Source: a virus. From it: a DNA stretch of 23,787 nucleotides. A model generated the notes under the pieces. That model had not been told where the DNA came from. It ran no database searches and was given only the letters and a program-made list of their open reading frames with translations. This document shows, one piece after another, positions 578 to 23,663 of this stretch. Numbering within the stretch: position 1 is the stretch's first letter; every line of letters starts with the position of its first letter. Location of the stretch: positions 1-23,787 of IMG/VR virus record IMGVR_UViG_3300024252_000079. The stretch is one strand, 5' to 3'. Made by a program: the position numbers and the translations under genes.

Positions 578-3355
578 TTAGTAATTAACTGCCCATCCGT
601 GAAGCTGTGCTATCTTTGAAGATGCTTGTTGATTAGCCCACTCTGCTTTCATCTTAACCGCTGTGCCAGTATTCGACAGAGTAGTTTTTCCTAAAGGAAT
701 AACATTTGTCGTTCCGTCAAACGTAGTTGGACTACCGTAAGATGCAGCCTCTGTCCAATTGCTTCCGTTATCAGCTGAAAAGTAAGCTTTCAAATCAGTA
801 CCAATTGTGTTTGTACCTACACTATCTTTAACAAGTAAAGCACCCGTTACTTCTGAAACCGTTGAGTCAGCAGTCGATGCAGTTGAAACAAGTGAACCTG
901 TTGCACTTAATGTTGTATTAGTAGCAGTTCCATAAGGTGCTGTAGGAGGCGTGAAATCTGAATCCCAACGGGCTACTCGTGAAATTCTTACTTCATCAAT
1001 ATGAGCATCTGCGTAATAACCCTGCACCGTAGTTTTTCTACCTATATAAAATTCATTTGTATTATTCGTCATATTAAGTGTTGATGTGGTTGTGTTTTCA
1101 GATGTGCCATTCACATAAAATTTCATTACCCCGCTTGACCTAACAACACACAAATGATACCACTGGGGAGATGAAACAGCTGTTGTAGTATTTACTGTTG
1201 CTCCACTTGAACCATCAGACATTTGAAACCTGATAATATTACCAGATGTTCTATACATTGAAAATGCAAATCCTGACCAAGTTGCGTCTGAATTAACTTT
1301 AGACAAAATACCATCTTCGTTACCTGCCCACGCAGCTGTTGGACGATACCAACACTCCATAGTGAAATCACCAGTTCCTAGATTAAATGCATCATCATCA
1401 GGAACGCTTAAATAATCACCAGTACCATCAAAGTACATTGAAGAAGCACCAAACTTTGATTGTGCCGTACTATGCTGAGAATCTCCACCAACTGTAACCG
1501 TCCTAGCATTCTGGCTACTATCCACAAAAGTCTGACTGCCATTAGTCGTATCACTCTGAACCAATAAGAGTGTATCATGGTCTGGCGTTGGTTCTCCGGT
1601 TGCTTCAATAATTGCTTCTATCTTGTTATGGTTTCCATGATGAGCCGTCAGGCTAGTCAATGTATCGTTTTGACCATACCCACCATTAGGATGTGTCCCT
1701 GAAAGATATTCTACAAGTACATTCCCACTTGTACCTTCATCCACACCAATAGCCCAAAATACAGTTCCCTTTTCAATTGGCACATTCAAAACAAAAGTTT
1801 TCTCACCCGCACTATTAAGATTTATAGTTTCCGAATCTGACCCAATTTGTGATACTGGGTTTGTGCCATCAGATGACCAAATTTCATAATGACCGTTAAA
1901 GGCCGTGGTGACGGAAGTAATATTAATTTTAATACCTGTAATATTCCCAGTTCGTGTGGCTTTGAATAGTGACCCCATATATTTAGCTGTAGAGACTCCA
2001 TCACCCCAATTAGTGGAGGCTGAAGCAGTTTCATGGTAGTAACCATCACGCTGAATTTTTGCAGAGTCAGTTATTTTAAAGTTGTCGTAATCAGCTTCTT
2101 GTGGCCCCGGATCACCTGATGCAAACCGCATTGTCCCTGAATAAGTCGTGCCATATGTATGGACAACAACGTCATCATCATAGACTTTGATTGTTCCAGA
2201 TACTCTTTCAATTTTAACAACCGAACCATCTGCAAAAGTATGCGTATCTGATTGTGCAGAAGAACCAATCATAAAATCAGTTACACTTTCGTCACGATAC
2301 CAAAATGAATTGGTCATGCTACTCATTCCTGCCCGTTGGTCAGCGGTGCGAGTCCCATCCTCATCAATTGCATACACACCAAACTCAGACTGATTTGATT
2401 CCGCCAGCGTAAAAGTTATCTCGAAATCGCCATCAAGAGTTATAAGCGTACTAATATTATTATTACTTCCTGTAGCTTTCCAATACGCTCCTATCGAATG
2501 ATCGCCAAGAGGATTACCAGCTACAGGATGTTCGCTGTTTGAGAATGTGTAATCAAAATCATTACTACTCAAAGCAATGTTTGTAGCAGTATCTAATTCT
2601 GAAGCAGAAGTTACATACTCATCAGAACTTACTAATGCATTTACAGAGTTAGTACTATCAACACCTGTTGAATCTTGAAAGTGGTCAATGAAATCATCAG
2701 TCAAGTTCATTGCAACTTTATTATCAACACTAGCCCAATGAAGAGCAAGAGTTGAAAGGTCTTGGTATTGTGATTCAAAATTAACGGACACACTAGCAGG
2801 CAATGTACCTGTTAGTTTAGAAGCGTCCATACTAACAATTTTTGGATTTGTTACTGAACCATCCCACAATGTATTTTCAGCAAGTGCCATGAAATAAACT
2901 AATACTTTCATACCAGTTGGGGGAGCTGTCGTAAATGTCAACGTAGTTCCGCTTACTGTATAATCAGTTCCCGGCTTTTGGTTAACACCATTATATGTAA
3001 CTAAAAGGTCTTCTGGATTAGTTACTGAATGATTCAATGTAAGTGTAGTTGAACCATTACCCGTCATTACTTGATAGTCAATAGCATCTTGTGGTATTAC
3101 AGATGATACTGTCATTTCCTGACCAAGATAAACTACGAATACTATATCACCTGTGGTTGGAGCTGCTGTGAATGTTAGTGTACTTCCAAGTACTGTGTAA
3201 GCTACGTTTGGTTCTTGGACAACACCGCCTACTGAAACTATTAGTCCATTTGCATTTGAAATATATGTTAAGTCAAATGCAACAGTTGAACTATCAGCCG
3301 TAAGGGTCTGCTTTTCCAATACACCATATTCAATATCTCTGCCTATGTAAGCCAT
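578..3355 (-). CDS. Tail fibre protein, long paralogue with LamG-like lectin domain
   Basis: A 925-residue protein. The ends match the 542-residue neighbour: MAYIGRDIEYGVLEKQ plus two QEP/QKP beta modules (1-160), DASKLTGTLPA (178-188), a lectin-like region (about 268-432 with VVKIERVSGTIKVYDDDVVV), and the C-terminal module from about 812 ending HGWAVNY. Extra to this gene are a beta module at about 433-590 (FKATRTGNITGIKINI, VFWAIGVDEG) and a LamG/concanavalin-like domain at about 592-805, recognised by SSMYFDGTGDYLSVPDDDAF, FTMECWYRP, WYHLCVVRSSGVMKFYVNG and HIDEVRISRVARW. LamG folds in fibres usually bind glycans. AAGGGAT precedes the ATG, with 21 bases to the upstream stop. The length difference is explained by insertion of about 370 residues of recognition modules. 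Ligand unknown. Confidence 0.88.
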   Translation of the reverse strand: MAYIGRDIEYGVLEKQTLTADSSTVAFDLTYISNANGLIVSVGGVVQEPNVAYTVLGSTLTFTAAPTTGDIVFVVYLGQEMTVSSVIPQDAIDYQVMTGNGSTTLTLNHSVTNPEDLLVTYNGVNQKPGTDYTVSGTTLTFTTAPPTGMKVLVYFMALAENTLWDGSVTNPKIVSMDASKLTGTLPASVSVNFESQYQDLSTLALHWASVDNKVAMNLTDDFIDHFQDSTGVDSTNSVNALVSSDEYVTSASELDTATNIALSSNDFDYTFSNSEHPVAGNPLGDHSIGAYWKATGSNNNISTLITLDGDFEITFTLAESNQSEFGVYAIDEDGTRTADQRAGMSSMTNSFWYRDESVTDFMIGSSAQSDTHTFADGSVVKIERVSGTIKVYDDDVVVHTYGTTYSGTMRFASGDPGPQEADYDNFKITDSAKIQRDGYYHETASASTNWGDGVSTAKYMGSLFKATRTGNITGIKINITSVTTAFNGHYEIWSSDGTNPVSQIGSDSETINLNSAGEKTFVLNVPIEKGTVFWAIGVDEGTSGNVLVEYLSGTHPNGGYGQNDTLTSLTAHHGNHNKIEAIIEATGEPTPDHDTLLLVQSDTTNGSQTFVDSSQNARTVTVGGDSQHSTAQSKFGASSMYFDGTGDYLSVPDDDAFNLGTGDFTMECWYRPTAAWAGNEDGILSKVNSDATWSGFAFSMYRTSGNIIRFQMSDGSSGATVNTTTAVSSPQWYHLCVVRSSGVMKFYVNGTSENTTTSTLNMTNNTNEFYIGRKTTVQGYYADAHIDEVRISRVARWDSDFTPPTAPYGTATNTTLSATGSLVSTASTADSTVSEVTGALLVKDSVGTNTIGTDLKAYFSADNGSNWTEAASYGSPTTFDGTTNVIPLGKTTLSNTGTAVKMKAEWANQQASSKIAQLHGWAVNY
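2922..2965 (-). repeat. 44-base repeat shared by the two large fibres, copy 1
   Basis: Matches 4566-4609 at 43 of 44 bases. It encodes DYTVSGTTLTFTTAP in the second N-terminal beta module of the 925-residue fibre. It is much closer than the flanking DNA of the two genes. Confidence 0.9.
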
Positions 3356-3376: not shown

Positions 3377-5005
3377 TTAATAGTTAACCGCCCAACCATG
3401 TAAGCGTGTCTCTTTTGTTCCTGATGCCTGATTTGCCCATTCTGCTTTCAATTTCATTTCCGTGCCAGATGTTAAACCAGTTGTCTTTCCAAGTTTAACC
3501 ATTTTCTTTGAAGCACCATTGAAGTTGATAGCTGAACCATAAGAAGCAGCTTCAGTCCAGTTAGCACCATCATCAGCAGAAAAGTAAGCTTTCAAATCAG
3601 TACCGAGTGTAGCAGTTCCAGATGAATTCTCATAAACCATTACACCAGAAGCAGTTGTTGTTGCAGAGTCTGCTGTTGATGCTGTTGAAATAAGCGTACC
3701 TGTTGCGCTTGTTGTAGGAGTAGAAGCAGTAAAAGTTAAACTATCTATATCACCATCAAAAGGTGTTCCGTGATTAGTAAAAGTAAAACGCATATCTACA
3801 TTACTTGTTTCAGGATAAGTATAAACTAAAGAAGAATTAATATATACTTTAACTTGACCAGATATTCTGGTGTATTTAACAACATCACCCGCATTTACAC
3901 CGGCAGACATAACTCGTGCAGTACCAAAAGAAGAATATTGTGCATAAGTTCTGTTAGCTGCACTATTACCAGTAAACCAATACGAAACAGTCATGTTGTC
4001 CATTCCGCCGTAGGCTACACCTGCCCATGTACTATCTTCGGTTACAGGATAAAATCCCCATGCTTGATTATGCACACCAGTTGCTGTAAATTGAATTGTA
4101 AAATCACCAGTTCCAGAAGTCCATACGGATTTAATTCCATCATCTCCTGTTATATTATCAACACCACCAGAAGTAATAGTATAAGCACTAGTATCTCCTG
4201 TCCAATCACCAGAGCCTGGAGTTGTAACCGTATCCGCAGAATAAATACTACTAACATACTCACCAGTAGTATTACGGTCAACTGTTGTTTCCGTCAAGAT
4301 TCCGCTATCACTTTCAAACTGGTCAATGAATACGCCAGGCAAGTTGAAAGATGCTTTGTTATCTGCAACTGCAACGTGTATACCAAGTGAAGCAATTGTT
4401 TGGTCAATACTAGTTGTGTCTACACCCATACCAGCAGGCAATGTACCTGTTAGTTTAGAAGCATTCATTCCAACAATTTTTGCGTCTGTTACTGAATTAT
4501 CAGCAAGTGTTCCAATTGCAGCTGCTTTACCCAAATGATAAACAAGGATTCCCATACCACTATCAGGAGCTGTCGTAAATGTCAACGTAGTTCCGCTCAC
4601 TGTATAATCTGTAACCGGCACTTGTGTTACACCATTCAGCATAACCATTAGTGATTGTGCATTTTCAGGTGCTGTTGATAGCGTAATAGGTGTAGTATCA
4701 GAACCATCACCAGTACCAGTTTGAAAAGTAATGCTCTCTCTTACACCAGAAGCTGTAGTTAGCTCTTTTCCGAGATATACTGCATAGGCAACTAAACCGT
4801 TTGCAGGAGCAGCAGTGAATGTTAGAGTTGTACCTGATGCAGTATAAGCTACATCGGGTTCTTGAATAATACCACCAACACTAACCAATAAACTCTTTGC
4901 ATCTTTAACACCACTATCCAAAACAAATGCAGTTGTTGAGCCGTTAGTTGTGAAGGACTGCTTATCCAATACACCATATTGAATATCTCTTCCTATGTAA
5001 GCCAT
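3377..5005 (-). CDS. Tail fibre protein, short paralogue
   Basis: A 542-residue protein. Residues 1-160 start with MAYIGRDIQYGVLDKQSF and hold two beta modules of the form LLVSVGGIIQEP-x-x-AYT...TTLTFTAAP and LMVMLNGVTQVP...TTLTFTTAP-x-SGM. Residues about 170-190 have DNSVTDAKI and ASKLTGTLPAG, a linker found in the other fibres. The middle (about 235-425) looks like one lectin-type beta sandwich (GDFTIQFTA, VKYTRISGQVKVYINSSLVY). The last 115 residues (STASTADS, GTDLKAYFSADDGANWTEAA, KAEWANQASG, ending HGWAVNY) match the end of the next gene. It is probably a host-recognition fibre. AAGGAT lies before the ATG. Compared with its paralogue it lacks two central modules. Confidence 0.87.
   Translation of the reverse strand: MAYIGRDIQYGVLDKQSFTTNGSTTAFVLDSGVKDAKSLLVSVGGIIQEPDVAYTASGTTLTFTAAPANGLVAYAVYLGKELTTASGVRESITFQTGTGDGSDTTPITLSTAPENAQSLMVMLNGVTQVPVTDYTVSGTTLTFTTAPDSGMGILVYHLGKAAAIGTLADNSVTDAKIVGMNASKLTGTLPAGMGVDTTSIDQTIASLGIHVAVADNKASFNLPGVFIDQFESDSGILTETTVDRNTTGEYVSSIYSADTVTTPGSGDWTGDTSAYTITSGGVDNITGDDGIKSVWTSGTGDFTIQFTATGVHNQAWGFYPVTEDSTWAGVAYGGMDNMTVSYWFTGNSAANRTYAQYSSFGTARVMSAGVNAGDVVKYTRISGQVKVYINSSLVYTYPETSNVDMRFTFTNHGTPFDGDIDSLTFTASTPTTSATGTLISTASTADSATTTASGVMVYENSSGTATLGTDLKAYFSADDGANWTEAASYGSAINFNGASKKMVKLGKTTGLTSGTEMKLKAEWANQASGTKETRLHGWAVNY
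4566..4609 (-). repeat. 44-base repeat shared by the two large fibres, copy 2
   Basis: Partner of 2922-2965 in the 542-residue fibre, with one silent-looking difference. It suggests recent exchange or conversion between the paralogues. Confidence 0.9.
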
Positions 5006-6334: not shown

Positions 6335-6838
6335 TTACCATCTATAAGGCTTATCTGCAAATGGATAGTCAGGGTCTTCATATTTTACAACTGTTTCATC
6401 GTAATATTTTGAATCTGGATTATGTTGTGATAGAGCATCAGACGTATCCCACATATCAAACCATGTACCATGTTCATTATAATGCTCTTCGTTCCAAACA
6501 AACCTATTAGGCCCACCATTCAATCCTGTTGGATAAGGAATAGGGGGTTCATATCTAAATGTTTCTGTATTAAAAACAAAACTAGGAAAAGGTGTTGGAG
6601 GAATGAATGCATCATTATCCCTATCATAAGTATAGTCGAGTCCTGCAAAGTTTTTTCTTATTGCTGGTTTACTATCTTCTAATCCAGTTTCAGGATCATA
6701 ATGTTTTCCACCAAAGGTATTATAAGATGTCTTAATCCATTCTCCACCAAGACCATCATCATAGTTATCTATAAAACTTTGGGATGCTGCTATTACATTA
6801 ACTACTTTATTATCTATAACTTTTGCAAAGTGTGCCAT
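6335..6838 (-). CDS. Conserved marine-phage virion-type protein, 167 residues
   Basis: The frame is open further upstream to 6946, but the best start is the ATG at 6836-6838: it is preceded by TAGGAG about 10 bases away and gives the natural beginning MAHFAKVIDNKVVNVIAAS. The longer version would overlap the Gly-rich gene and add residues that are only its frame-shadow. The protein is acidic and rich in Tyr, Pro, Trp and Asn, with WIKTSYNTFGGKHY, LDYTYDRDNDAFIPPTPFPS and FVWNEEHYNEHGTWF. Proteins of this pattern recur beside fibre genes in marine T4-like phages, as I remember them, but I know of no assigned function. No signal peptide or enzyme motif is visible. The position between adhesin and fibre genes suggests a virion or fibre-assembly role. 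Confidence 0.82.
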   Translation of the reverse strand: MAHFAKVIDNKVVNVIAASQSFIDNYDDGLGGEWIKTSYNTFGGKHYDPETGLEDSKPAIRKNFAGLDYTYDRDNDAFIPPTPFPSFVFNTETFRYEPPIPYPTGLNGGPNRFVWNEEHYNEHGTWFDMWDTSDALSQHNPDSKYYDETVVKYEDPDYPFADKPYRW

Positions 6839-6857: not shown

Positions 6858-7721
6858 TTATAATGGAAATGGTGCTCTAATAACAACAATGCCTCTGCCA
6901 CCTGTGCCGGGGTTTGAGCCACTACCAGAACCATGTCCACCACCACCTGTATTTATTACACCATCTGCTACGCCGGGTGAAGTGCCTGGGTTTCCACCGC
7001 CACCGTTACCACCGGCAGATTCTCCACTATTTCCAGAAGTATTTCCACCACCGCCTCCGCCGCCTCCAGCATAGAATACAGCAGAACCAGTTCTAAGGTC
7101 ATTTGATAATCCAACACCACCAACGCCTGAACCACCACCATTACAACCACCACAGCCGGGACAACCACCGAATGCATTAGCATTAGCACCAATTCCACCA
7201 GCACCACCGCCTCCGCCTCCACCCGTGACTGCTCCACAACTTGAACCTCCACCTCCGTTATTTCCTTGTCCAGCAGTTCCTGCACTACCACCCGCACCGC
7301 CGGGTTGGGCTGGATGTCCACCACCAGAACCAGAACCACCAATACCAGTATTTGTTCCTTTGAAACCTCCACCAACAGCATCAGTTAAACCAGTAATTCC
7401 TGTAGTATTATTAAATCCAGAAGATGTTTGAGTACCGCCACCACCTACAATAATATTAAATAAGCCGGGACTTACTGCTAAAGCATTTTGTACTACCATT
7501 CCACCAGCACCACCACCGCCATGTCCAGCTCCACCACCACCGCCTCCGGCAACTGAAAGAACATCAACGGTAACTGCGTTAGAACCAGTAATTTCAAAAG
7601 TACCAGACTCTAAAAAAGTATGAATTTTGAAATTAGACCTAAAGGTTTCAGTACCACCGAAAGTGCCGGGGTCTACCAAACCTACTGTACCAGTATGTCT
7701 ACCTTGATTTATAAATGCCAT
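6858..7721 (-). CDS. Stand-alone Gly-rich adhesin
   Basis: A 287-residue protein of which more than half is Gly-rich (roughly residues 57-280): runs of GGGGGGAG, GGGGHGSGSGSNPG and several Asn/Ser/Ala interruptions, with Cys-containing segments such as GGCPGCGGCNGG. The front (residues 1-55) is not Gly-rich and contains FKIHTFLESGTFEI, which resembles the lead-in to the Gly-rich domain of the preceding gene; the ending GGRGIVVIRAPF also matches that gene's GGSGIVVI. It therefore looks like a detached copy of the adhesin domain, possibly a separate tip protein. The ATG has AAGGAAT at good spacing and follows the preceding gene by 18 bases. The opposite strand appears as proline-rich open frames, which are shadows. 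Receptor and assembly partner are unknown. Confidence 0.82.
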   Translation of the reverse strand: MAFINQGRHTGTVGLVDPGTFGGTETFRSNFKIHTFLESGTFEITGSNAVTVDVLSVAGGGGGGAGHGGGGAGGMVVQNALAVSPGLFNIIVGGGGTQTSSGFNNTTGITGLTDAVGGGFKGTNTGIGGSGSGGGHPAQPGGAGGSAGTAGQGNNGGGGSSCGAVTGGGGGGGAGGIGANANAFGGCPGCGGCNGGGSGVGGVGLSNDLRTGSAVFYAGGGGGGGGNTSGNSGESAGGNGGGGNPGTSPGVADGVINTGGGGHGSGSGSNPGTGGRGIVVIRAPFPL

Positions 7722-7739
7722 AACTTATTCCTTATTATA

Positions 7740-9371
7740 TTATGCAAATTCTAAAATTACAACTATTCCAGAACCACCCTGATTCGCGCGATTTATATTA
7801 CCATTACCACCACCTGGCGTTTCTCCCCAAAAAGAAGTTCCTGGCGTAGGGCCTGCACTTGATGCTGAACCCCTCATTTGCACACTTCCACCTGTACCTC
7901 CTCCACCGCCGGGATTCCCAGCAGCAAAAGCAGTAGTATCATTTGGATTTACACCACTACCACCATTTACACCACTAAGTCCACCGCCACCACCAAATGC
8001 AGTTGCGTGTGTTCCAAATGTAGAAGCTTCTCCAGCAGAACCGTTCGAGAGTCCAGAAGGATTGCCGGGGCTGTTTAGTGCATTACCCAGAAAGTTGCCA
8101 CCACAACTACCAACTGTAACAGTTTCACTTACGATGTTGGTTACATCAAGAAACCCCATTACTGTTCCGCCACCACCACCATAGCCCCGAATTATTGCCT
8201 GAGCTGGGTTTGCTTGAGTACCATCACCATTATGAGAGAATATGCCATCACCACCACCACCACCTGTTACGAAATATAATACTCTTGTAACACCAGCAGG
8301 TTTTGTCCATGTATGTGTTGTAATATTAGGCCCTGAAATGCCATTTCCAGTTCCATTTGCACTAACTACAGAACCAAATGTTTGTATACTAACAAGTGAT
8401 GTACCACCACCACCAGTTAATGTGGAAGCTGCTGTAGCAAATGAAAGAACACCAGAACCATTAGTTTGTAGAAATTCTCCAGCTGCTCCATCTGCTTGAA
8501 CACTTAATTGTGTAACACCAACTGCATTGTTAGCAATCTTAGTTCCATCAACTGCACCAGCTGCAATTTTAGTACTAGTAACTGCACCAGCTGCAATCTT
8601 AGTTCCATCAACAGATAATGATGCAAGCTTTGCAGTTGTTACATTTGCATCAATAATATTTCCTGTGCGGACTGAATTATCAGCCATCTTTGCTAGTGTA
8701 ATATTTCCATCAGTAATTTTATCTGTGGTTACACTCAAACCAGCTATCTTATTAGAAGTTATACTACCATCAGCAATCTTACCAGAAGTAACATTCAAAT
8801 CTGAAATCTTAACTGTAGTTACAGCATTAGTTGCTAACTCTGGTGTACCTACTGCCTGTGCAACTATCTGTGTATTTGCAAGATTACCAGATACATCACC
8901 TGATAATGTCATATTGGATGCTGGTGTAATAAACTGTAAATTACCAGAACCATCAGCTGATAAAAGTTGTCCACCCGTTGAAGGTGCAGTAACATTTAAT
9001 TCTGTAAGTCCAACAGCATTAGTTATAATTTGTGCATTACTAATTGAACCAGATAAATCACCACCAAGTTGCATATCATTATTAACATCAATGGATTGAA
9101 ATGACATATTACCAGAACCATCAGTAGTAAGAACCTGTCCATTACCACCATCTGATAAATTCAATTGAACAATACCAACACCACCACCAGCAGCAGTACC
9201 AACAACATTACTCATATCCTCTTTTGCTAAAGGATGTCCGCCCTGTGTATTACCATCATGGCACACTAAGGTATTCTTAGTTGTGTCTTGTGTTATCTCG
9301 CCTTCGGCACCAGCAAATACACTATGATTTGCTGTTGTACCTCTTCGTCTTTGTACTAATTTAGCTGGCAT
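7740..9371 (-). CDS. Tail fibre with Mtd-like N-terminus and Gly-rich adhesin C-terminus
   Basis: A 543-residue protein. Residues 1-56 are the RRRGTT-x-x-H anchor (VQRRRGTTANHSVF, LVCHDG, HPLAKEDMSN). Residues 70-177 hold two full copies of the DGSGNxxF plus GGDLSG/SGDVSG module, and a half copy sits at 288-312. Residues about 180-290 contain about eleven ten-residue repeats (NVTSGKIADG, SVTTDKITDG, AVTSTKIAAG). From 352 (HTWTKPAGVTRVLYFVTGGG) to the end it is a Gly-rich domain with runs of GGGGG alternating with Thr/Ser/Asn segments, closing with GGSGIVVI. Such C-termini resemble Gly-rich phage adhesins like gp38 of S16-type phages, which use stacked polyglycine-II helices with variable loops at the tip; that comparison is from general knowledge. 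The start has AAGG and a conserved late-promoter-like block upstream. Confidence 0.88.
   Translation of the reverse strand: MPAKLVQRRRGTTANHSVFAGAEGEITQDTTKNTLVCHDGNTQGGHPLAKEDMSNVVGTAAGGGVGIVQLNLSDGGNGQVLTTDGSGNMSFQSIDVNNDMQLGGDLSGSISNAQIITNAVGLTELNVTAPSTGGQLLSADGSGNLQFITPASNMTLSGDVSGNLANTQIVAQAVGTPELATNAVTTVKISDLNVTSGKIADGSITSNKIAGLSVTTDKITDGNITLAKMADNSVRTGNIIDANVTTAKLASLSVDGTKIAAGAVTSTKIAAGAVDGTKIANNAVGVTQLSVQADGAAGEFLQTNGSGVLSFATAASTLTGGGGTSLVSIQTFGSVVSANGTGNGISGPNITTHTWTKPAGVTRVLYFVTGGGGGDGIFSHNGDGTQANPAQAIIRGYGGGGGTVMGFLDVTNIVSETVTVGSCGGNFLGNALNSPGNPSGLSNGSAGEASTFGTHATAFGGGGGLSGVNGGSGVNPNDTTAFAAGNPGGGGGTGGSVQMRGSASSAGPTPGTSFWGETPGGGNGNINRANQGGSGIVVILEFA
8508..8837 (-). repeat. About eleven 30-base codon repeats forming the fibre shaft
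   Basis: A tandem array with a 30-base period encodes ten-residue units such as NVTSGKIADG and AVTSTKIAAG. A similar array spans about 10850-11160 in fibre A, and only about two units remain in fibre B. Such units probably form a trimeric beta shaft whose length follows copy number. Confidence 0.8.
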
Positions 9372-9396
9372 AATATTTAACCTTATGTTTTTTTAT

Positions 9397-9404
9397 TATT
9401 TATA
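9397..9404 (-). promoter_or_regulatory. T4-type late promoter motif before the Gly-rich fibre
   Basis: Minus-strand TATAAATAATAAAAAAA, overlapping the stop codon of the preceding fibre gene and 26 bases upstream of the next ATG. The same 17 bases occur at 17410-17426, which makes chance less likely. It would let the 543-residue fibre be transcribed apart from fibres A and B. Confidence 0.62.
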
Positions 9405-10416
9405 CTCTAGTCTTTAACATGAATCTTAAACCTCGACCTGCTGTAGTATTACCTATCTGTATTACCTTAAAAGTTATTCTATCACCTGATACAAAACTGT
9501 TCGTTGTTAATGTTCCGGCAGTAAGAGTAGAAGCACCAGATGCAAACGCAGGTTTAGAAGAATAAATACTTGTTCCATTTTTTTCTACATCACATATAAT
9601 TGGCTGTCCTGCTGATACAGTACTAACAAATCCAACTTCACCATCAAACGAACCTGTACGAGCCATAACCATTTCACCATATATTTGTACGACAACATCT
9701 ACTGGTAATGTTGCGGTATCAAAACCAGCAATAAAAGATATATCGTAAGGCAAACCATCTGCATTAATATTCGTTAATGCTGAACCATCAATAGCAGGAA
9801 GAGCACCAGTTAGTTTACTTGCAGATACAGTATCAATCTTTGCATCTGTTACATTTGCATCAACTATTTTTATTGTAGAAATTGAATCCGTTGCTAATTC
9901 TGTTTGTCCAACAACTCCAACTGACAATTGTAAATTACCAAGAAATCCAGTTAAATCACCACCAACTTCAATTTCTGTAGATGGATTTTTAAAAATTAAT
10001 GTTCCACTACCATTAGTAGTTAATACTGAACCAGCAGTTCCATCAGGAACATTTAGTTCATTAATATTAATAGTATTAGAATTTATCTGTGCATTTGCGA
10101 TTGTACCAGTTAAATCTCCACCAATCGTTTCATTAGATGCGCCAGGAAAACTTACGAAACTCAAAACACCAGCACCATTTGTTTGTATTACTTGACCAGC
10201 CTGGCCTGGACTATTCGTGATGTTTAACTGAGAAGCACCGACAGTATTAGAAACATTACTCATGTCCTCTCTTGCTAGTGGATGTCCGCCAACCGTAGTA
10301 TTATCATGTACCACTAATGTATCTTTAGTAGAATCAACCGACAGTTCCCCATCCTCACCCGTAAAAGTATTATGCTCTACGGTAGTGCCTCTTCTAAATT
10401 GAACTTGCTTAGCCAT
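9400..10416 (-). CDS. Tail fibre protein with Mtd-like N-terminus (B), paralogue of A
   Basis: A 338-residue protein that repeats the plan of its upstream neighbour: N-terminal anchor (FRRGTTVEHNTF, LVVHDN, HPLAREDMSN), two copies of the AGQV-x-x-TNGxGxLxF plus GGDLTG...NAQI module (residues 64-170), a very short SIxTIKI repeat shaft (about 177-195), ASKLTGALPAIDGSALT (199-215), and the C-terminal domain (223-338) that is about half identical to that of fibre A (PYDISFIxGFDTATL, QIYGEMV, ICDVEKNGTSIYS, AGRGLRFML). The main differences from A are the loss of most ten-residue repeats and one extra module copy. Both starts share TAGGAAAACAA before the ATG, so the duplication included the ribosome site. 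The gap between A and B is 27 bases. The function is inferred as host-surface adhesion. Confidence 0.87.
   Translation of the reverse strand: MAKQVQFRRGTTVEHNTFTGEDGELSVDSTKDTLVVHDNTTVGGHPLAREDMSNVSNTVGASQLNITNSPGQAGQVIQTNGAGVLSFVSFPGASNETIGGDLTGTIANAQINSNTININELNVPDGTAGSVLTTNGSGTLIFKNPSTEIEVGGDLTGFLGNLQLSVGVVGQTELATDSISTIKIVDANVTDAKIDTVSASKLTGALPAIDGSALTNINADGLPYDISFIAGFDTATLPVDVVVQIYGEMVMARTGSFDGEVGFVSTVSAGQPIICDVEKNGTSIYSSKPAFASGASTLTAGTLTTNSFVSGDRITFKVIQIGNTTAGRGLRFMLKTRV
9707..9757 (-). repeat. 51-base repeat shared by fibres A and B
   Basis: Matches 10751-10801 at 48 of 51 bases. It encodes the start of the shared C-terminal domain (PYDISFI-x-GFDTATL) in fibre B; the partner is in fibre A. 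It is the best-conserved part of this paralogue pair. Confidence 0.88.
9782..9819 (-). repeat. 38-base exact repeat, copy 2 (fibre linker)
   Basis: Partner of 464-501. It encodes the same SKLTGALPAIDGS linker in fibre B, just before its C-terminal domain. A diverged version lies near 10810-10850 in fibre A. Confidence 0.92.
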
Positions 10417-10443: not shown

Positions 10444-11556
10444 TTATACTCTGCAATTTAACATAAATCTTAAACCTGCACCAGCAGTACCAGAACCAAT
10501 TTGAGTAACTCTAAAAGTTAATTTTTGTCCGGCAGTAAAATTAGAAGTACTTAATGTACCAGCCGTCATTACTGTACTTCCAGCAGCAAACGTAGGTTTA
10601 ACAGAATAAATACTTGTTCCATTTATTTCTACATCACATATAAGAGTTGAACCTGTGGGTGCAGTTTCTATAACTCCAAACTCACCATTAAACACACCAG
10701 TTCTTGAAGTAACCATTTCACCATATATCTGTGCAACAACATTTATTGTTAATGTTGCAGTATCAAAACCACCGATAAAAGATATATCGTAAGGCAAACC
10801 AGTTAATGCACTACCATCAATAACAGGAAGAGGCCCAGTTAACTTACTTGCAGCCATACTAAAAATTTTATCATTAGTTACATTTGCATCAACTATTTTT
10901 ATAGTTGTTACACTATCCGCAGCAAGTTTTGCTGCTGTTACTGATAAATTTGCAAGTTTATCAGTTGTCACATTTAAGTCAATAATTTTAACAGTTGATA
11001 CAGAGTTAGTTGATAATTTTGATTGAGTTACATTTGCATTTAAAATCTTGGAAGTGATTACAGAATTTGTTTGGAGTTGTGCGCTACCAATAGAAATGTT
11101 AGATAACTTTGCTTGTTGAATAGTACCATCAGCAATCTTATCATTCGTTACACTTAGACTTGCAAGTTCATTATTGCCAACTGCACCAACAATGATTTGA
11201 GCATTTCCTACCGTACCCGATAAATCACCACCAATAGTAGCAGAAGAAACATCTGATATTTCAACGAAACTTAAAACACCAGAACCATTTGTTTGTAATA
11301 CTTGTCCTGCTGCTCCATCATTGAGATTTAATTGTGCAACACCAACACCACCGCCTGTTGGAGTACCACTAACATTACTCATGTCGGCTCTTGCAAGAGG
11401 ATAACCTGTTGGTTGTCCTTCAGCAAATGGTGTATTATCACCGTCATGTACCCTCACTGTTTTATCAGTAAGGTCAACCGTTATTTCACCAGCAGCGCCA
11501 GGAAAATTATTATGATCTGTCGTTGTACCTCTACGTCTTTGTACGATTTTAGCCAT
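10444..11556 (-). CDS. Tail fibre protein with Mtd-like N-terminus (A)
   Basis: A 370-residue protein. Residues 1-55 (VQRRRGTT, HNNFPGAAGEITVD, VRVHDG, YPLARADMSN) match the N-terminal domain shared with the Bordetella phage major tropism determinant and many marine fibre proteins; it usually anchors the trimer to the virion. Residues 76-127 form one copy of a module L-N-x-x-x-G-x-AGQVLQTNGSGVLSF...IGGDLSG...NAQII. Residues about 132-235 are ten-residue repeats of the type SVTxxKIxDx, likely a trimeric beta shaft. Then ASKLTGPLPVIDGSALTG leads into a C-terminal domain (255-370) shared with the next gene, possibly the receptor-binding head. Its start has TAGGAAAACAA before ATG and overlaps the small upstream gene by 8 bases. 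Fibre identity is strong; the target is unknown. Confidence 0.87.
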   Translation of the reverse strand: MAKIVQRRRGTTTDHNNFPGAAGEITVDLTDKTVRVHDGDNTPFAEGQPTGYPLARADMSNVSGTPTGGGVGVAQLNLNDGAAGQVLQTNGSGVLSFVEISDVSSATIGGDLSGTVGNAQIIVGAVGNNELASLSVTNDKIADGTIQQAKLSNISIGSAQLQTNSVITSKILNANVTQSKLSTNSVSTVKIIDLNVTTDKLANLSVTAAKLAADSVTTIKIVDANVTNDKIFSMAASKLTGPLPVIDGSALTGLPYDISFIGGFDTATLTINVVAQIYGEMVTSRTGVFNGEFGVIETAPTGSTLICDVEINGTSIYSVKPTFAAGSTVMTAGTLSTSNFTAGQKLTFRVTQIGSGTAGAGLRFMLNCRV

Positions 11557-11759: not shown

Positions 11760-14700
11760 TTATGCTAATGCTATAGCTCTCAAATCTTTTATCAATGGAA
11801 CATTTGTTGTGTTAGGTGATGTCATAACAATTTTAACTGCAAATGTTTTAAAGGTATCATAGTCAACTCCACTAGAGTCGTAAGTAGTGTTTGCAGTAGT
11901 TGGTGAAAATTCAAGTTCTAGGTATTCTCTATTATTGATAGAAGCAGAAACACTATTAGAATTTGATGTTTCACCCATTATTACCCAAGGTCGATTATCA
12001 AAAATATCCCCATCAAACTGTGATAAGACTTTGTAATAAACATAAATCTTAGAACCAGCTGGACGATTAGCAGTTAAAAATACTTGTAAATCTGAAGCAT
12101 CAAATCCGTCTTTCAAATTTACCCGTCTTGTAAGATACCGAGCAATAGAATCACCACCATTTGCATTTGTTTCATTTGTAGCAACATTATTAATAAGGTT
12201 TTCAATAGTAATTACACTATTCCTCACTGTATCAATAACAGGACTAATAAATTTACTCTGTGAAGTTAACTGTGCTCTTTCCTCATAACTACCAGCATTT
12301 ACAGTAATTTTTTTCTGTTCATCTAAAATATAATTACTATTTTGAATGATAGGTCTATAATCAGTATCAAAAGTATCAGCACCCTCATCTGTTAATTTAA
12401 CACCCCATGCTATATTAGTTCTATTTATTCTTACTTCTTGCGGAATAATTTGAAGAATATCAGCCTTGAATTCTGCTGTTGATGTTCCGTCTTTAAACAC
12501 AGCGTTTGCATTATTTCCAATAGCAAATTCTGCAATATTAATATTAAATGTTAAATCTTGATTTTGTTCTGGTGTCCACGTTGAAGCATTCTGTGATTTA
12601 AAAAATACACCAGCATAAGGTTGTTCTGAAATTTTTCTATTCGTACCTATAATATTTTCACCAAGCTCAGCAATAAATGCTTCATATTTTAAACTATTAC
12701 TTATTACAACAATTGCATACTCGCCAGGTTGTAAATAAACCAAAGATGGAAATGTAAACTTAGTTGCAACTGAAGCATCATCACTTACATTAACGTCAGC
12801 AGGAAATTTATTAACATCAGAAAATGGAACAACAGTCTGTGCAGGATAACCATTTAAAGTATCCCGAATCTGTAATGTTACTGGAAGTCCATCTTCGTCT
12901 TTTGTCTTAAAAAATAATTCAACATCTGTTAAGAATACTCCATCTGGATACAATGCAGCATCAACCAAAAATGTTTCAGCCAATGGATCAATCCAACCAA
13001 CAATATTTCTTCGATTGAAAGTATTTGTAGTAGTTCTAAAATCTGTAGCAGTACCTTGTGCAAATTGTTGTATTCTAGGAACTCTTGTAGACACTACAAC
13101 ATTTTCTCTTGTCTGCAATAATCCCTGTGCTTGATAAACAACTTCTGCATAAGTTGAAGCTTCAATTAGATTTGCTGAAGTATTATCTACTAATAAGAAT
13201 TGTCTTTCACCAGTTCTAAATCTAAGAGCATCTGTGTTTGGAATTGTGAAAGTCAATCCGTTAATTGAACCACCATCATCTGTAAATATATCACCACCTA
13301 AACTTCCACCACTCGGAGTACAATTTGCTGAAACAGCTTCTCCATCAAAGAAAGCATACACCCTTGTATTAGGTTTCATTCCTGTTACAGAAACCGTTAC
13401 ATCTCTTGAGCGAATAAATGGAATAACAGAAACATCAACCACTCTATCACCAATGCTGTTTCTTACAACATCAGAACCCGTGATTTCATTTCGGATACCA
13501 AGTCTTGTTTGTGTTATTGTTTGTTCAATAGTTTGTGTTGCTCTAATGGCTGCTCTACCACCACCACCATCAGCCCTTCTACTTCCGGCCACTTCTCCAA
13601 TTACAGTTTCACGACCAGTATTAATTGTTTGCCAATCATTGAATTGTGTACCAAAGGATAGACCAACCAAACTTTCCCATGCATCATTTTCACCTTGAAG
13701 GTTTACAACAACCTCTGGATTATTTGTAGTATCAATCCAGTTATCATTAGGTGGCGTTAGATCAACTGTACCAACCCACGCTAATACTGCAAATGGATTT
13801 AAATTAACCGACCTACTTGCAACTGGCTGAGATACAAAAGATGCATTATCATAAGGTAAAGTAATACAGTCACCCGTTTTCCTTACACCCGTTGAAGATG
13901 ATTCATCATAAATAACATCGGTAATATTAGAAGTAAATCTCGGCCGTAATATTTTTTCATCAAAATCAATTGAACATTGATAATCTGCACTCAATACATT
14001 TCCAACACTATGGCCATTAAATCCATCAACCAAAAATCCATTCTTAAATCTATCCAAACCAGCAACATCTTTAATAACTATATTTTCAGCATCTTTTTCT
14101 AATAATGATAATGATGTATAATACTCAACATTAGAAAGTCTCTTTTCTAACTTACCGATATCTCTCATCGTATATCGTTTGTTCTCAATATACTCTGCTC
14201 TAACATCCTTTGCACTAAAAGTAAAAGCAGGAATAAAAATTGTATAGAGGTTCATTGTACCATCAAGTCTTGCAGGAGGGGTTGTGTTTAATGAAGATAT
14301 ACCTTTATTATTTCCAAACTTTCTCTCTCTACTTAAATATACTGTATCAATTCTTGGAAGGTAATAACTAAAGTCAGCTTGCCAGTTTGAGTTTGGTACT
14401 GGAAGTTCTATATTTTCTATAGTTGTTCCACCATCAGCTCGTCTAGGTCTAAAATCTACACAATCTCGTAACTCAACTTCAATACCTGTAACTGGACTTG
14501 TATACTTTGGAATATTATTAAAACCAATAGCTGCACCATAAGAATCAACAGAAAGATAACCTACACCTGTATGTGTAAAATGGTCAAATACGATTGCAGT
14601 TTGACCAGTAGGTGCTGTCCCTCCTGCTTTTAATTTTATACTACCATGCTCATAAATATTATCTCTTTGTCCATCATCTAATTCATATTGTGTGGTAATA

Positions 14701-17396
14701 TTCGTATCACCAGTTGCGACAGAACTAACAACTTTTGTAAAATTTGATGTTGCACCAGTAACATTCTCTGCAACAAAAGTTCCAGATACAGGAACATAAG
14801 TAACAGAAGTAGTTCCACCAGCACCAAGAACAACAGTCCCTTTAGCACCAGAAGTAAGGCCTGTTATTGTTTCGCCAGGACTTAAAGTATCAGAAGTATT
14901 TCCAACAGTAAGTGTAGGTAACACTGCTGCATTATTAATATCTCCAGAATCATAAACTGCTTTCAATTTCCAAATATCAGATTTGTTAAGAGAATCAGAA
15001 GTTGTAGATACAGTACTCGGTGCAGCTTTTGTTTCCACGACATTACCTACTAAGTTCTTTATCCTCTCCTGCTTACTATCAACATTAATAGTTGCAATAA
15101 TATCTGCTGTAAAATTTGTATTTACATTAGCATTAAGTGTTGCAGTAGTATTCTGTGGGCCATTAACTTCTATAGTTCCACCAGTATCAAATGGAACGAT
15201 CTGACCTGCGACAAACGTAGATGTACCAGCACTTTTAATTACTGCTAAATATCCTTCTCTCTTATTAGTTGCACTTAATACACCCGTACCAAAAAATGTT
15301 TCAGATGCACCAGCAGTAGCTATAGTAGCTTGTCCAGAAGTAAATGCTACAGATTCAAAAACTCTTTTAATTGTATAACTTGTATCTATTACATCATTAA
15401 GTCCACGAATAGTTTGAACGGTATCTTGTGGTAATTTAAATACTAATGTATTATCAGAAGTTTCAAACAACTTTGCATCACCGGCAGAGGCTGGAGAGCT
15501 GCCAGGAACTTTACCAGTATCATCAATGTTAGCTGACGATTGAATTACAACAGGTGTCACTGAAGAATCTACAGGTACTACAAGTGATTCAACAGCTGCA
15601 AAATTAGAACTAGTCATTGTTAAATCATAAAGATATAAATTAATAATTCTTGATGTACCAGAACCAGAAGAAAAATCAATACTTCTTACTTTTGCTGTTC
15701 CAATTATTGTATTTGCATATGTTGTTGGATTAGTCAATACTACACTAGAACTTGTTACACTATGAAGGTCTACTGTTTGGTGTGTAGAAATATTAAATAA
15801 CCCATTAATTTCTTTTGTGATAACAAAGTTACCATATTGCATTAACCTATCAAATCCATTTACGTTTACTACTTCTCTTGCTTTATCTAACCTAATATCG
15901 GAAGAAATTATTGTTTCATACTCAAGACCTTCAATGAATGCTTTGCCTGGGTCTAACCTTACAATAAATTTTGTAGCATCATCGGGATCATCTCTAAGTT
16001 GAACATTAAATGAACGTACAGTATAACTTCCCGATTCATCAAATGTTCTACGAGCAAAAGTATTTTCTAATACTGAATAAATAGGAACTTGAATATCTTT
16101 TTCTTTTATACCTTTATTAATTCTAAGCAATTCATAAAAATCAGTATCGTCTGTAGAAGTCAATACTTTCTTCGCAAGAGTCAATGATAGTTTCAACCTA
16201 TCTGCGCCAGGTGCTGCAAAGTTAGAAGAGCCTTGTGAATTATCAAGTAAGTTTAAATCGTCACCAGAATTAATAATAGTTTCTGTAGCAGTAATTCCAA
16301 TTTTATAACTTGGGTCATTAAAATATTTATCTAAAATAATTGTTTGTTGTGGTGTTTTAATAAAATTTCCATTAACATAAAAAACACCTTCTGCAATAGA
16401 AGCAGAACTACCTTTACCAACAGCTGTTGCCAAAGTACTGGTAGCAATAGCAGTAACACCACCAGCTGGTGCATTTGCAATAGTAACCGTTGGGGCTTCT
16501 GTATAACCAGCACCTTTTTCCATTATAGTAATAGAAGTTACTATACCACCACTGATGGTTGCAGCTGCAGTTGCATTAGTTCCACCAGCAGGTGCGTTTG
16601 CAATAGTAACCGTTGGAGCTTCTGTATAACCAGAACCACCTCTTGTAATATTAATAGTTTGTATGTTTGTTGGTGTAGAGTCAACTACAACAGCAGATAT
16701 ACTCAAATCAGAAGAGGCAATTCTCTCTCCTGCAAGGAAAACAGCAGAGGTATCCCTAACAGCATTAGCTTCAGCACCAACACCATTACCACCAACCAAT
16801 GTAACAGTTGGTGTCGTAGTATATCCTGTACCCTTATTCGTAACATTAATAGCAATAACAGAGCCACTATTGACTACTGCTGATGCAGCTGCACCAGAAC
16901 CACCACCACCTGTTATCATAACAACAGGCTCAGTTGTGAAACTGTTTCCACCCAAAATTACATCAATACTTTGAACCTTATCCGTTGTAGAAACACCAGA
17001 AATATATTTAACATATAATGTATTTGGATCGCCTGTAGTAGTATCTATTGCCGAATTTCCTAAAACAAGTGCTTTAGTTCCAGACTTACTTCCAATAATA
17101 GTTTTTCCACTAAAACCAGCTACGTTAATATCCACACTATTATATTGTGGTTTTAATTTAACATATTCATATTCTAAATTTAGAACAAGTTCTCCACCAG
17201 TAACCCTACTGCCATTTTTAAAAACATGGTCGCCAAACTTCTTTACTTGATCTCTTAAAATGGATTGTTGGGTAGTGAGTTCTCTAGCCTGCACAGGAAG
17301 TGCTGGTTTATATAATACTTGATGAAAATTATCATTATCATCAAAGTCATCAAAATAGGGACTTTGATTTGTATTTATTGTAATTTTATTCGACAT
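11760..17396 (-). CDS. Giant virion protein with split DUF4815-like N-terminus
   Basis: At 1878 residues this is the largest gene here. The N-terminus (SPYFDDFDDNDNFHQVLYKP, then PVQARELTTQQSILRDQV, residues 12-50) and the block GVFYVNGNFIKTPQQTIILD...SLLDN-type...APGADRLKLSL (about 335-400) are the two halves of a DUF4815-type domain, as I remember that family from phage tail proteins. Between them (about 149-320) lie at least four GxGYT-x-x-PTVTI beta repeats, two nearly identical. The centre is long, beta-rich and repetitive. The C-terminal third has FLTDVELFFKTKDEDGLPV and YLQPGEYAIVVISNS, also seen in large virion proteins of marine myoviruses. It occupies the place of T4 gp9/gp10 between gp8 and the fibres, so it may be an outer wedge or fibre-anchoring protein; that role is inferred. 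AAAGG precedes the ATG, with a late-promoter-like block just upstream. No enzyme motif was recognised. Confidence 0.82.
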   Translation of the reverse strand: MSNKITINTNQSPYFDDFDDNDNFHQVLYKPALPVQARELTTQQSILRDQVKKFGDHVFKNGSRVTGGELVLNLEYEYVKLKPQYNSVDINVAGFSGKTIIGSKSGTKALVLGNSAIDTTTGDPNTLYVKYISGVSTTDKVQSIDVILGGNSFTTEPVVMITGGGGSGAAASAVVNSGSVIAINVTNKGTGYTTTPTVTLVGGNGVGAEANAVRDTSAVFLAGERIASSDLSISAVVVDSTPTNIQTINITRGGSGYTEAPTVTIANAPAGGTNATAAATISGGIVTSITIMEKGAGYTEAPTVTIANAPAGGVTAIATSTLATAVGKGSSASIAEGVFYVNGNFIKTPQQTIILDKYFNDPSYKIGITATETIINSGDDLNLLDNSQGSSNFAAPGADRLKLSLTLAKKVLTSTDDTDFYELLRINKGIKEKDIQVPIYSVLENTFARRTFDESGSYTVRSFNVQLRDDPDDATKFIVRLDPGKAFIEGLEYETIISSDIRLDKAREVVNVNGFDRLMQYGNFVITKEINGLFNISTHQTVDLHSVTSSSVVLTNPTTYANTIIGTAKVRSIDFSSGSGTSRIINLYLYDLTMTSSNFAAVESLVVPVDSSVTPVVIQSSANIDDTGKVPGSSPASAGDAKLFETSDNTLVFKLPQDTVQTIRGLNDVIDTSYTIKRVFESVAFTSGQATIATAGASETFFGTGVLSATNKREGYLAVIKSAGTSTFVAGQIVPFDTGGTIEVNGPQNTTATLNANVNTNFTADIIATINVDSKQERIKNLVGNVVETKAAPSTVSTTSDSLNKSDIWKLKAVYDSGDINNAAVLPTLTVGNTSDTLSPGETITGLTSGAKGTVVLGAGGTTSVTYVPVSGTFVAENVTGATSNFTKVVSSVATGDTNITTQYELDDGQRDNIYEHGSIKLKAGGTAPTGQTAIVFDHFTHTGVGYLSVDSYGAAIGFNNIPKYTSPVTGIEVELRDCVDFRPRRADGGTTIENIELPVPNSNWQADFSYYLPRIDTVYLSRERKFGNNKGISSLNTTPPARLDGTMNLYTIFIPAFTFSAKDVRAEYIENKRYTMRDIGKLEKRLSNVEYYTSLSLLEKDAENIVIKDVAGLDRFKNGFLVDGFNGHSVGNVLSADYQCSIDFDEKILRPRFTSNITDVIYDESSSTGVRKTGDCITLPYDNASFVSQPVASRSVNLNPFAVLAWVGTVDLTPPNDNWIDTTNNPEVVVNLQGENDAWESLVGLSFGTQFNDWQTINTGRETVIGEVAGSRRADGGGGRAAIRATQTIEQTITQTRLGIRNEITGSDVVRNSIGDRVVDVSVIPFIRSRDVTVSVTGMKPNTRVYAFFDGEAVSANCTPSGGSLGGDIFTDDGGSINGLTFTIPNTDALRFRTGERQFLLVDNTSANLIEASTYAEVVYQAQGLLQTRENVVVSTRVPRIQQFAQGTATDFRTTTNTFNRRNIVGWIDPLAETFLVDAALYPDGVFLTDVELFFKTKDEDGLPVTLQIRDTLNGYPAQTVVPFSDVNKFPADVNVSDDASVATKFTFPSLVYLQPGEYAIVVISNSLKYEAFIAELGENIIGTNRKISEQPYAGVFFKSQNASTWTPEQNQDLTFNINIAEFAIGNNANAVFKDGTSTAEFKADILQIIPQEVRINRTNIAWGVKLTDEGADTFDTDYRPIIQNSNYILDEQKKITVNAGSYEERAQLTSQSKFISPVIDTVRNSVITIENLINNVATNETNANGGDSIARYLTRRVNLKDGFDASDLQVFLTANRPAGSKIYVYYKVLSQFDGDIFDNRPWVIMGETSNSNSVSASINNREYLELEFSPTTANTTYDSSGVDYDTFKTFAVKIVMTSPNTTNVPLIKDLRAIALA
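16459..16633 (-). repeat. Direct repeat, 52 bases twice, 123-base period
   Basis: Bases 16459-16510 and 16582-16633 match at 49 of 52 positions with an offset of exactly 123 bases (41 codons), keeping frame. They encode the repeat GYTEAPTVTIANAPAGG twice in the giant virion protein. Further, more diverged copies lie at about 16790-16840 and 16900-16950. Confidence 0.9.
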
Positions 17397-23265: not shown

Positions 23266-23663
23266 TATTTATTCCTCTTTATTGATTCCACTCTTTTTCT
23301 TATATGTTCCGCAGATTGTTTATATCCTTTATGGGAAGCACTATTATTTTTTCTGTGTTCTTCAGAATGTTTTCTACCTTTTAATTTTTGACTTATTTTT
23401 ATTTTAGTTTCTTCGGGAGTTATATATCCAAGCTTACGTTGTTTCCCTTTGTTTGATTTTACCTGTGCTTCTTTAAGTGCTTCCGCACAATCTATTTGTC
23501 CTGATAGTTGTCTCCAAGCAACTTCATCTTGCCACCTGCCATGTTTCTCAAAGAGTTTCTTATGAGCTTCTGCGTGTTCTGATATAGTAAGTGTAACTAT
23601 ATTAGATGGGTCATCACTACCACCAGCGTGTCTTGGTATTATATGATGTCTATGTGTTATCAT
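23265..23663 (-). CDS. HNH homing-type endonuclease with NUMOD3 motifs
   Basis: A 132-residue protein. Residues 3-35 carry an HNH signature: HRHHIIPRH, then N at the central position (SNIVTL) and EHAEAHKKL, matching the His-His/Asn/His metal-finger nucleases. Residues about 85-130 are rich in Lys, Ser and His and hold two NUMOD3-like DNA-binding motifs (KISQKLKGRKHSEEHRKN and a second around HKGYKQSAEHIRKR), as found in GIY-YIG and HNH homing enzymes. It probably cuts DNA of related phages lacking the gene and so promotes its own spread. The start is supported by AGAGAGG 6 bases upstream, inside gp25. It overlaps gp25 by 4 bases and gp6 by 1 base, so it is free-standing rather than intron-borne. 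The HNH residues look intact. Target site and activity are inferred only from family. Confidence 0.9.
   Translation of the reverse strand: MITHRHHIIPRHAGGSDDPSNIVTLTISEHAEAHKKLFEKHGRWQDEVAWRQLSGQIDCAEALKEAQVKSNKGKQRKLGYITPEETKIKISQKLKGRKHSEEHRKNNSASHKGYKQSAEHIRKRVESIKRNK

Follow-up and report, generated by a model that had tools for sequence, protein, structure and literature searches.

The window analysed here is the 23,787-nt viral record IMGVR_UViG_3300024252_000079 (all coordinates are window positions). On its minus strand, a stand-alone glycine-rich (Gly-rich) protein of 287 amino acids (aa) is encoded directly ahead of a gene of the family phrog_7759 and directly behind a 543-aa fibre, which itself ends in a Gly-rich domain. 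On balance, the free protein is probably a separately made receptor-binding tip with the phrog_7759 protein as its chaperone or cap, and the domain fused to the fibre would be a second, separately acquired tip. The pair of a tip gene and a phrog_7759 gene recurs in many unrelated phages, and both proteins find their best structural counterparts in the gp24-gp25 complex of phage Pam3. An earlier note had described the fibre with its Gly-rich end and the adjoining stand-alone protein, and both descriptions were confirmed. The features concerned are, with the supporting evidence in brackets:

7740..9371, minus strand: fused-copy fibre, 543 aa, with an Mtd_N N-terminus and a Gly-rich C-terminus (open reading frame (ORF), Pfam scan, fibre comparison)
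7740..8345, minus strand: Gly-rich C-terminal domain of the 543-aa fibre, ~200 residues (Pfam scan, BLAST)
6858..7721, minus strand: free Gly-rich candidate tip protein, 287 aa, PF21722 (ORF, Pfam, structural model)
7587..7637, minus strand: lead-in of the free protein, residues 29-45, SNFKIHTFLESGTFEIT, predicted to form strands in the beta core (model, lead-in profile)
7338..7439, minus strand: most variable block of the free protein, residues 95-128 (alignment)
7143..7238, minus strand: conserved cluster of four cysteines (Cys) of the free protein, residues 162, 187, 190 and 193 (alignment, wider tip set)
6873..6893, minus strand: closing strand GIVVIRA of the free protein, residues 277-283 (model, alignment)
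6335..6838, minus strand: phrog_7759 protein, 167 aa, start codon ATG at 6838, proposed to act on the free tip as chaperone or cap (phrog match, neighbourhood counts, model)

Pairing of phrog_7759 with Gly-rich genes

Loci were fetched from a viral collection using the phrog_7759 profile alone, without choosing for Gly-rich genes, and the best 80 of at least 584 matching stretches were used, a choice that leans toward close relatives. The 80 phrog_7759 proteins (loci are numbered L) form 77 clusters at 90% identity. A gene was scored as Gly-rich if it contains at least 28% glycine in a 100-residue stretch. Two loci had no upstream gene and five no cleanly called target, leaving 73 scorable loci. 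In 67 of these, a Gly-rich gene lies directly upstream of phrog_7759 on the same strand, compared to 12/73 directly downstream, 9/63 two genes upstream and 40/545 among other genes. Reading the five set-aside loci from stop to stop revealed in each a Gly-rich ORF whose end coincides with the start of phrog_7759 or runs past it, which results in 72 of 78 loci overall, or 70 of 76 without L020 and L021, which share contigs with L010 and L006.

In GenBank, 28 phage records match phrog_7759, of which 19 were examined; the other nine are apparent duplicates or sister isolates, judged by name and length. A Gly-rich gene is located directly upstream in 15 of the 19 records, namely Melnitz-2, Melnitz-3, phiPsal1, CRP-143, zth2-2, ctn9Y15, CRP-207, ctNMl277, cta1H496, HTVC025P, 023Pt_psg01, Greip, HTVC023P, S-SM1 and S-RSM4. 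The unpaired records are S-SSM5, P-RSM4, DSL-LC04 and ct2KA10. The named phages are typed as members of podo- or myovirus families, and their hosts comprise SAR11, OM43, Roseobacter, Pontimonas and cyanobacteria.

Several of these records are of interest in their own right. The Gly-rich ORF of Greip runs off the record end and is annotated as DNA stabilization protein. In Pontimonas phage phiPsal1 (L106), a Gly-rich frame of 302 codons (1593-2498), which ends in GGSGIVIVRYAV directly before phrog_7759, is unannotated; the annotation of this stretch instead shows two short ORFs in other frames. Methylophilales phage Melnitz-3 (L018) carries an additional pair of tip and phrog_7759 genes (9027-10348; 324 aa and 115 aa), at the site of which another gene is found in Melnitz-2 (L016).

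As an alternative explanation, the free protein could be an internal or baseplate structural protein, paired with phrog_7759 because a hypervariable region is transferred as a whole, the two proteins having no functional contact. The positions downstream and two genes upstream are not enriched in Gly-rich genes to such an extent, so that regional co-transfer is insufficient to explain the counts. In addition, mutations in the Pam3-like Gly-rich domain of a Klebsiella phage fibre are reported to accompany changed host sensitivity or host adaptation (PMC12671077). This structural role draws on the derivation of the tip role from sequence and models, on the conservation rather than hypervariability of much of the Gly-rich region and on the weak structural model of the free tip (see below), and is considered quite improbable.

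Family and predicted structure of the free protein and its partner

The free protein contains up to 49% glycine per 100 residues and passes the gathering cut-off of PF21722 (Gly_rich_2) with 27.3 versus 24.3 bits. A tblastn search with it against GenBank phages gave no match, probably due to the complexity filter, which masks glycine runs; relatives were therefore drawn from viral contigs. The resulting full-length alignment (A1) comprises ten proteins including that of the window, to which the other nine are 46-75% identical, and PF21722 is matched by all ten (best E 4.1e-12). A profile scan with A1 revealed seven loci, of which three are located on contigs already in the set and four are new and more distant (L102-L105).

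Mean non-Gly identity to the window protein is unevenly distributed: it amounts to 0.62 for residues 1-28, 0.52 for 29-57, 0.37 for 58-94, 0.28 for 95-128, 0.44 for 129-215 and 0.57 for 216-287. Insertions are mostly found between residues 97 and 156, besides 18 columns around residue 30. The loop hypervariability proposed as a check in the earlier note thus applies to residues 95-128, the lowest value, and less to the more conserved stretches behind them.

The earlier note had also pointed to the Cys-rich GGCPGCGGCNGG as unusual. It is present as described and rare in the wider tip set, but not peculiar to this copy. Of the ten aligned proteins, the window's included, 8, 8, 9 and 8 retain the Cys at columns 162, 187, 190 and 193, respectively; all four are absent from L010 and two from L011, and L006 has a histidine at one. 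A further member of the free family, L019, has all four, and among the 66 Gly-rich tips adjoining phrog_7759 only two contain at least four Cys, one of them being L019. The joint loss of all four and the single exchange of Cys for histidine may point to a metal site or to a staple that connects loops.

The free gene keeps its gene order in related contigs. The upstream neighbours of 15 free tips were inspected, which come from the window and from 12 viral loci, two of which (L007 and L011) contribute a second copy each; the four more distant loci were left out, as were L002, L013 and L015, which are near-identical to the window or L012. In 13 of the 15, judged by eye, the gene directly before the tip ends in an LRF-x-L-type domain of the form ...GDRITFKVTQIGSGTAGxGLRFMLKCKV. 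L007 and L011 contain a second unit of fibre and tip. The LRFMLKCKV-type domain occurs both fused and free: it forms a gene of its own (138-140 aa) directly before the free tip in L005 (5581-5994), L008 (5577-5996) and L010 (5577-5996), and elsewhere it is the C-terminus of an Mtd_N fibre. L014 encodes a 137-aa protein with an alternating-Cys tail, NCACDCACACNC (10682-11092).

The structural model of the free protein is reliable only in a beta core (best around residues 21-60, 81-90 and 278-284), which is preceded by about 28 residues without a helix (low confidence for residues 1-15). Among the best rows of a structure comparison using VIA are the Pam3 fibre chain 7ypx_A (Z 7.7, 160 residues aligned, 3.8 Å), 7yfw_a (Z 7.4) and the Bxb1 tail tip 9d93_Qa (Z 7.5, 171 residues aligned), together with the glycine-rich domains of ALK/LTK (Z 6.3-4.2); the first unrelated row has Z 4.0. 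The phrog_7759 protein was modelled from 67 sequences with a predicted local distance difference test (pLDDT) score of 87 and a predicted template modelling (pTM) score of 0.76. A Foldseek search of 350,542 chains with this model gave the 162-residue chain 7ypx_a as first row, which is also its only VIA row at Z of at least 2 (Z 5.3, 54 residues, root-mean-square deviation 2.5 Å, model residues 1-81 on chain residues 3-57). The chain is taken to be gp25, since its length fits Phe162, the last residue of gp25. According to the Pam3 report (PMC9608196), 7YPX is the gp24-gp25 complex, in which the N-terminal domain of gp25 (Met1-Ala55) grips the TNF-like and Gly-rich domains of gp24; gp24 is described there as resembling both S16 gp38 and ALK. 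Two separate weak searches thus point to both partners of one solved complex, whose genes stand in the same order. The matches listed include neither S16 gp38 for the tip model nor Mu Tfa for the phrog_7759 model, but these absences are uninformative.

These comparisons make it very likely that the free protein is a receptor tip of the Gly-rich kind, and the models suggest its fold class as well as a gp25-like domain in its partner. The tip would be a separate polypeptide of the Pam3 gp24 fold class, in which a short and conserved tail of ~28 residues at the N-terminus is followed by a TNF-like beta core with its Gly-rich lattice. The phrog_7759 protein would serve as a dedicated folding chaperone or transient cap, gripping the tip core as gp25 grips gp24: it would bind the nascent core, let the Gly-rich lattice fold, perhaps cover the distal loops and then leave. 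By its N-terminal tail the tip would probably dock on a fibre with a C-terminal LRFMLKCKV-type domain, its commonest upstream neighbour, and from the fibre end it would contact the host surface through its variable loops. Precedents for such a course are Pam3 itself, the possible transient caps among the tail-fibre chaperones of Alteromonas phages (PMC10579305) and the Klebsiella phage fibre in whose Pam3-like Gly-rich domain host-adaptation mutations are reported (PMC12671077). With the fused Gly-rich domain of the 543-aa fibre as a second tip of separate origin, the phage would possess two different candidate receptor-binding ends.

Instead of being released, the phrog_7759 protein could stay on the particle as a minor virion protein, either as part of the tip or as a second adhesin. 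Its gene strictly adjoins the tip gene, Mu Tfa is described as staying bound in the virion (PMC9608196), and the tail-fibre chaperones of Alteromonas phages are proposed to act as transient caps (PMC10579305), all of which would be in line with a virion protein. In Pam3 virions, however, gp24 was detected by mass spectrometry and gp25, the best structural match of the phrog_7759 protein, was not (PMC9608196). A lasting place in the virion is therefore regarded as rather unlikely.

A number of observations weigh against the proposed roles of tip and chaperone. The phrog_7759 gene is not directly behind a Gly-rich gene in 6 of the 78 viral loci and in 4 of the 19 named records, and the LRF-x-L end is absent before the tip in the window and in L006. 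Melnitz isolates that differ in this region are reported to have identical host ranges on the strains tested (PMC9004378, where the isolate numbering may differ from that of GenBank). The tip model has a mean pLDDT of 49.5, with most of the Gly-rich middle below 50, and the first Foldseek rows are poor for both the tip (E 0.81) and its partner (E 0.15). VIA scores below Z 8, which include 7.7 for the tip and 5.3 for the partner, may mean merely a common arrangement. The free tip is devoid of the N-terminal helical bundle of gp24, and the phrog_7759 model, with one short helix late in the chain, of a helical trimerisation domain like that of gp25. Sequence-level searches of tip and partner against PDB chains gave no link, no tail-fibre-assembly model is among the Pfam families matched by 69 phrog_7759 members, and hhalign of phrog_7759 with the assembly proteins of Mu and lambda resulted in probabilities of 0.1% and 0.9%, the lambda gene being incomplete at its end.

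The family phrog_7759 is listed as function unknown. A Pfam scan of the 69 members revealed no credible match (nine families with one to three members each, best E 0.0084, E up to 1), and an NCBIfam scan of four members no match. No mention of phrog_7759, Gly_rich_2 or PF21722 was found in the open-licence PMC literature, in which the Pam3 report was the on-topic paper for Gly-rich tail fibres, chaperones and cyanophages.

The fused Gly-rich domain and two chain orders of tips

The 543-aa fibre has its N-terminal 210-250 residues in common with two sibling fibres of the window (43-46% identity), and its Gly-rich domain takes the place of their LRFML-type C-terminal end. A sequence search of the PDB with this fibre yielded Mtd only, at the N-terminus. 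The fused domain stays below the PF21722 cut-off (18.2 bits, E 0.0028, versus 24.3 bits). Between the free and the fused domain, BLAST gave no mutual match (complexity filter off, composition-based statistics on, E up to 10, 162 distinct Gly-rich ORFs), and when the profile of the free family was compared with the fused domain by hhalign, the alignment was confined to the last 11 residues, with a probability of 3%. On both results, a recent duplication of the two domains was rejected. The best outside match, obtained with the fused domain, lies in the interior of a fibre of L008 (33% over 89 residues, E 4e-4). Apart from the window, the domain was found in only one near-identical contig by a search limited to close relatives, and the GenBank matches of the whole fibre (best 40 of 103 records) fall in its N-terminus and middle; fused relatives at a greater distance may therefore exist. 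In L005, another fibre (371 aa) with a Gly-rich end is present besides the free tip.

The similar lead-ins (HTW/HTF) and endings (GGSGIVVI/GGRGIVVI) emphasized in the earlier note are indeed present in both copies, but represent a signature of the family (PF21722) rather than a special link between them. A G-x-G-hydrophobic ending occurs within the last 70 aa of 61 of the 66 Gly-rich tips adjoining phrog_7759, and the exact GxGIVVI in 2 of them; since the ending is near-universal among tips, sharing it provides no specific tie between the window copies. A lead-in profile built from other phages' tips matched the free protein weakly (E 0.0037) and gave no match to the fused copy.

It had been suggested that the copies may represent a transition between separate and fused tips; taken as a duplication, they would derive from one another, with a gp38-like free tip becoming a fused one. 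The genes are neighbours, the domains belong to the same class and end similarly, and tips of other phages with the same partner gene have short and long N-termini. Set against this are the missing BLAST match, the alignment of only 11 columns, the L008 fibre as best outside match of the fused domain, and the presence of the free gene in relatives without such a fused fibre ahead of it in the stretch fetched, which makes a derivation from one another highly improbable. The adjacency of the two proteins looks incidental, a syntenic free tip lying next to a fibre whose Gly-rich end is only distantly related to it. Among the 21 tips with a phrog_7759 partner and an N-side lead-in, the N-terminus is short in six (22-51 residues) and longer in 15 (63-556 residues), so that free and fused forms coexist in nature under the same partner; the idea of separate versus fused tips is hence borne out across phages, though not in the two window copies.

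Many tips ahead of phrog_7759 do not end in GxGIVVIRY, but in an extra stretch resembling TGGTVTSSGGYTIHTFTSSGTFTA, which corresponds to the lead-in found ahead of the Gly-rich part in other tips. Tips of both orders are located upstream of phrog_7759 in L024-L098 as well as in L108, L109, L112, L113, L115, L016 and L018. In 66 tips (six short fragments at locus edges were left out), the lead-in profile was found on the N-side in 21, on the C-side in 44, on both sides in none and on neither in one (L090). As the profile was built from 24 C-terminal tails, the 44 C-side matches arise partly by construction, which does not apply to the 21 N-side matches; in shuffled sequences, 3.1 of 66 proteins match. 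This count replaced an earlier, cruder pattern count of 72 tips (N 13, C 46, neither 12, both 1 (L077)). A further 17 tips from GenBank phages gave eight N, eight C (one of which, Greip, is a fragment with the N-side not visible), one neither and none both. By eye, both window copies carry the lead-in on the N-side, though the profile misses the fused one.

The mutual exclusion of both orders suggests a circular permutation of the core, which would require a single hairpin, no matter at which end. Alternatively, strands could be exchanged between subunits. Nothing on circular permutation of glycine-rich tail fibres was found in the open-licence PMC literature. On a tree of the proposed chaperone (64 rows, poorly resolved), the tip order is only weakly clustered, with 12 as the fewest changes compared to 16.6 in shuffles (reached by one to two of 500); well-supported branches force only two changes. 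N-order and C-order tips are thus mixed on the tree, and tips may be exchanged under one chaperone family.

Genomic setting and comparison with known systems

The 1878-aa protein of the window is akin to VrlC/structural proteins found in cyanomyophages and in the phages Melnitz and Mosig. In pelagimyophages, a variable cluster for host recognition has been placed between VrlC and gp14 (Zaragoza-Solas 2020, PMC7029224), which together with the VrlC-like gene assigns the Gly-rich genes to the fibre region of a marine T4-like phage. Leading away from the VrlC-like gene, the genes encode a 68-aa protein, the Mtd_N fibres of 370, 338 and 543 aa, the 287-aa Gly-rich protein and the 167-aa phrog_7759 protein, beyond which further genes, fibres included, follow. 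The features on the VrlC side are:

11760..17396, minus strand: VrlC-like protein, 1878 aa, bordering the host recognition cluster (sequence relatives, published cluster position)
10444..11556, minus strand: sibling Mtd_N fibre, 370 aa, C-terminus LRFMLNCRV (Pfam scan, fibre comparison)
9400..10416, minus strand: sibling Mtd_N fibre, 338 aa, C-terminus LRFMLKTRV (Pfam scan, fibre comparison)

Elsewhere in the window, the fibres at 578-3355 and 3377-5005 have a common N-terminus (phrog_18673) and a common C-terminal ending, and the 925-aa member of this pair contains a Laminin_G_3 (concanavalin-like) domain at residues 643-796. A 132-aa ORF adjoining baseplate genes (23265-23663) resembles, as judged by eye, an HNH-type homing endonuclease.

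Relatives of phrog_7759 are common, with at least 584 stretches in one scan of the viral collection. If the family is the partner of Gly-rich tips, it could lead annotators to receptor-binding tips whose glycine runs hide them from BLAST, including those of phages infecting very abundant ocean bacteria. A single tip fold apparently serves in two chain orders. Whether phrog_7759 is a widespread unnamed chaperone-cap family for Gly-rich TNF-like tips, which are exchanged in two circularly permuted orders, free or fused, as a ready module by which podo- and myoviruses swap host recognition with each other, is regarded as evenly balanced.

As in the pelagimyophage host recognition cluster (PMC7029224), the region lies just downstream of VrlC, where variable tail fibres were placed. 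The main text of that paper, in contrast, does not contain the word 'glycine', and the passages considered here name Mtd, collagen and other domains, but no pair of tip and chaperone. The free protein belongs to the sequence family PF21722 and differs from it by the phrog_7759 pairing and the four-Cys cluster, neither of which the Pfam match covers. In its overall arrangement, the tip model resembles, by VIA, the polyglycine tail tip of Bxb1 and the glycine-rich domains of ALK/LTK, the latter belonging to animal receptors.

Like the tail fibre assembly proteins (Tfa) of Mu and lambda, which we take to be Pfam PF02413, phrog_7759 is a small gene directly behind a receptor-binding gene. Judging from the model, it possibly shares the N-terminal fold of Tfa via gp25. 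It differs from Tfa in the lack of a Pfam or hhalign match and of the C-terminal helical domain in the model.

The comparison with gp37-gp38 drawn in the earlier note fits by function only: like gp38 of S16 and T-even-like phages (PDB 6F45), the free protein is a stand-alone Gly-rich protein encoded after a fibre and has a proposed tip role. The attachment differs, as gp38 is described as attaching through conserved N-terminal tryptophan (Trp) on helices and as having a beta-helix middle, whereas the free protein is devoid of Trp and is matched best by TNF-like structures. Compared to the three-layer polyglycine II sandwich of gp38 with variable distal loops, the free protein has one variable block and otherwise more conserved loops, and pLDDT in its Gly-rich middle is mostly below 50.

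The closest likeness is to Pam3 gp24/gp25 (PDB 7YPX). The free tip has a short tail instead of the helical shaft of gp24 and no N-terminal helical bundle for baseplate docking, and the phrog_7759 model, in contrast to gp25, is without the helical trimerisation domain; neither shows a sequence-level match to 7YPX chains. In both systems the tip gene comes first and the partner next, the distal part is Gly-rich, and by weak model comparisons the free tip matches gp24 and its partner the fibre-binding domain of gp25. The pair of tip and chaperone would accordingly be a Pam3-like variant, which proposes a new function for the large unnamed family phrog_7759.

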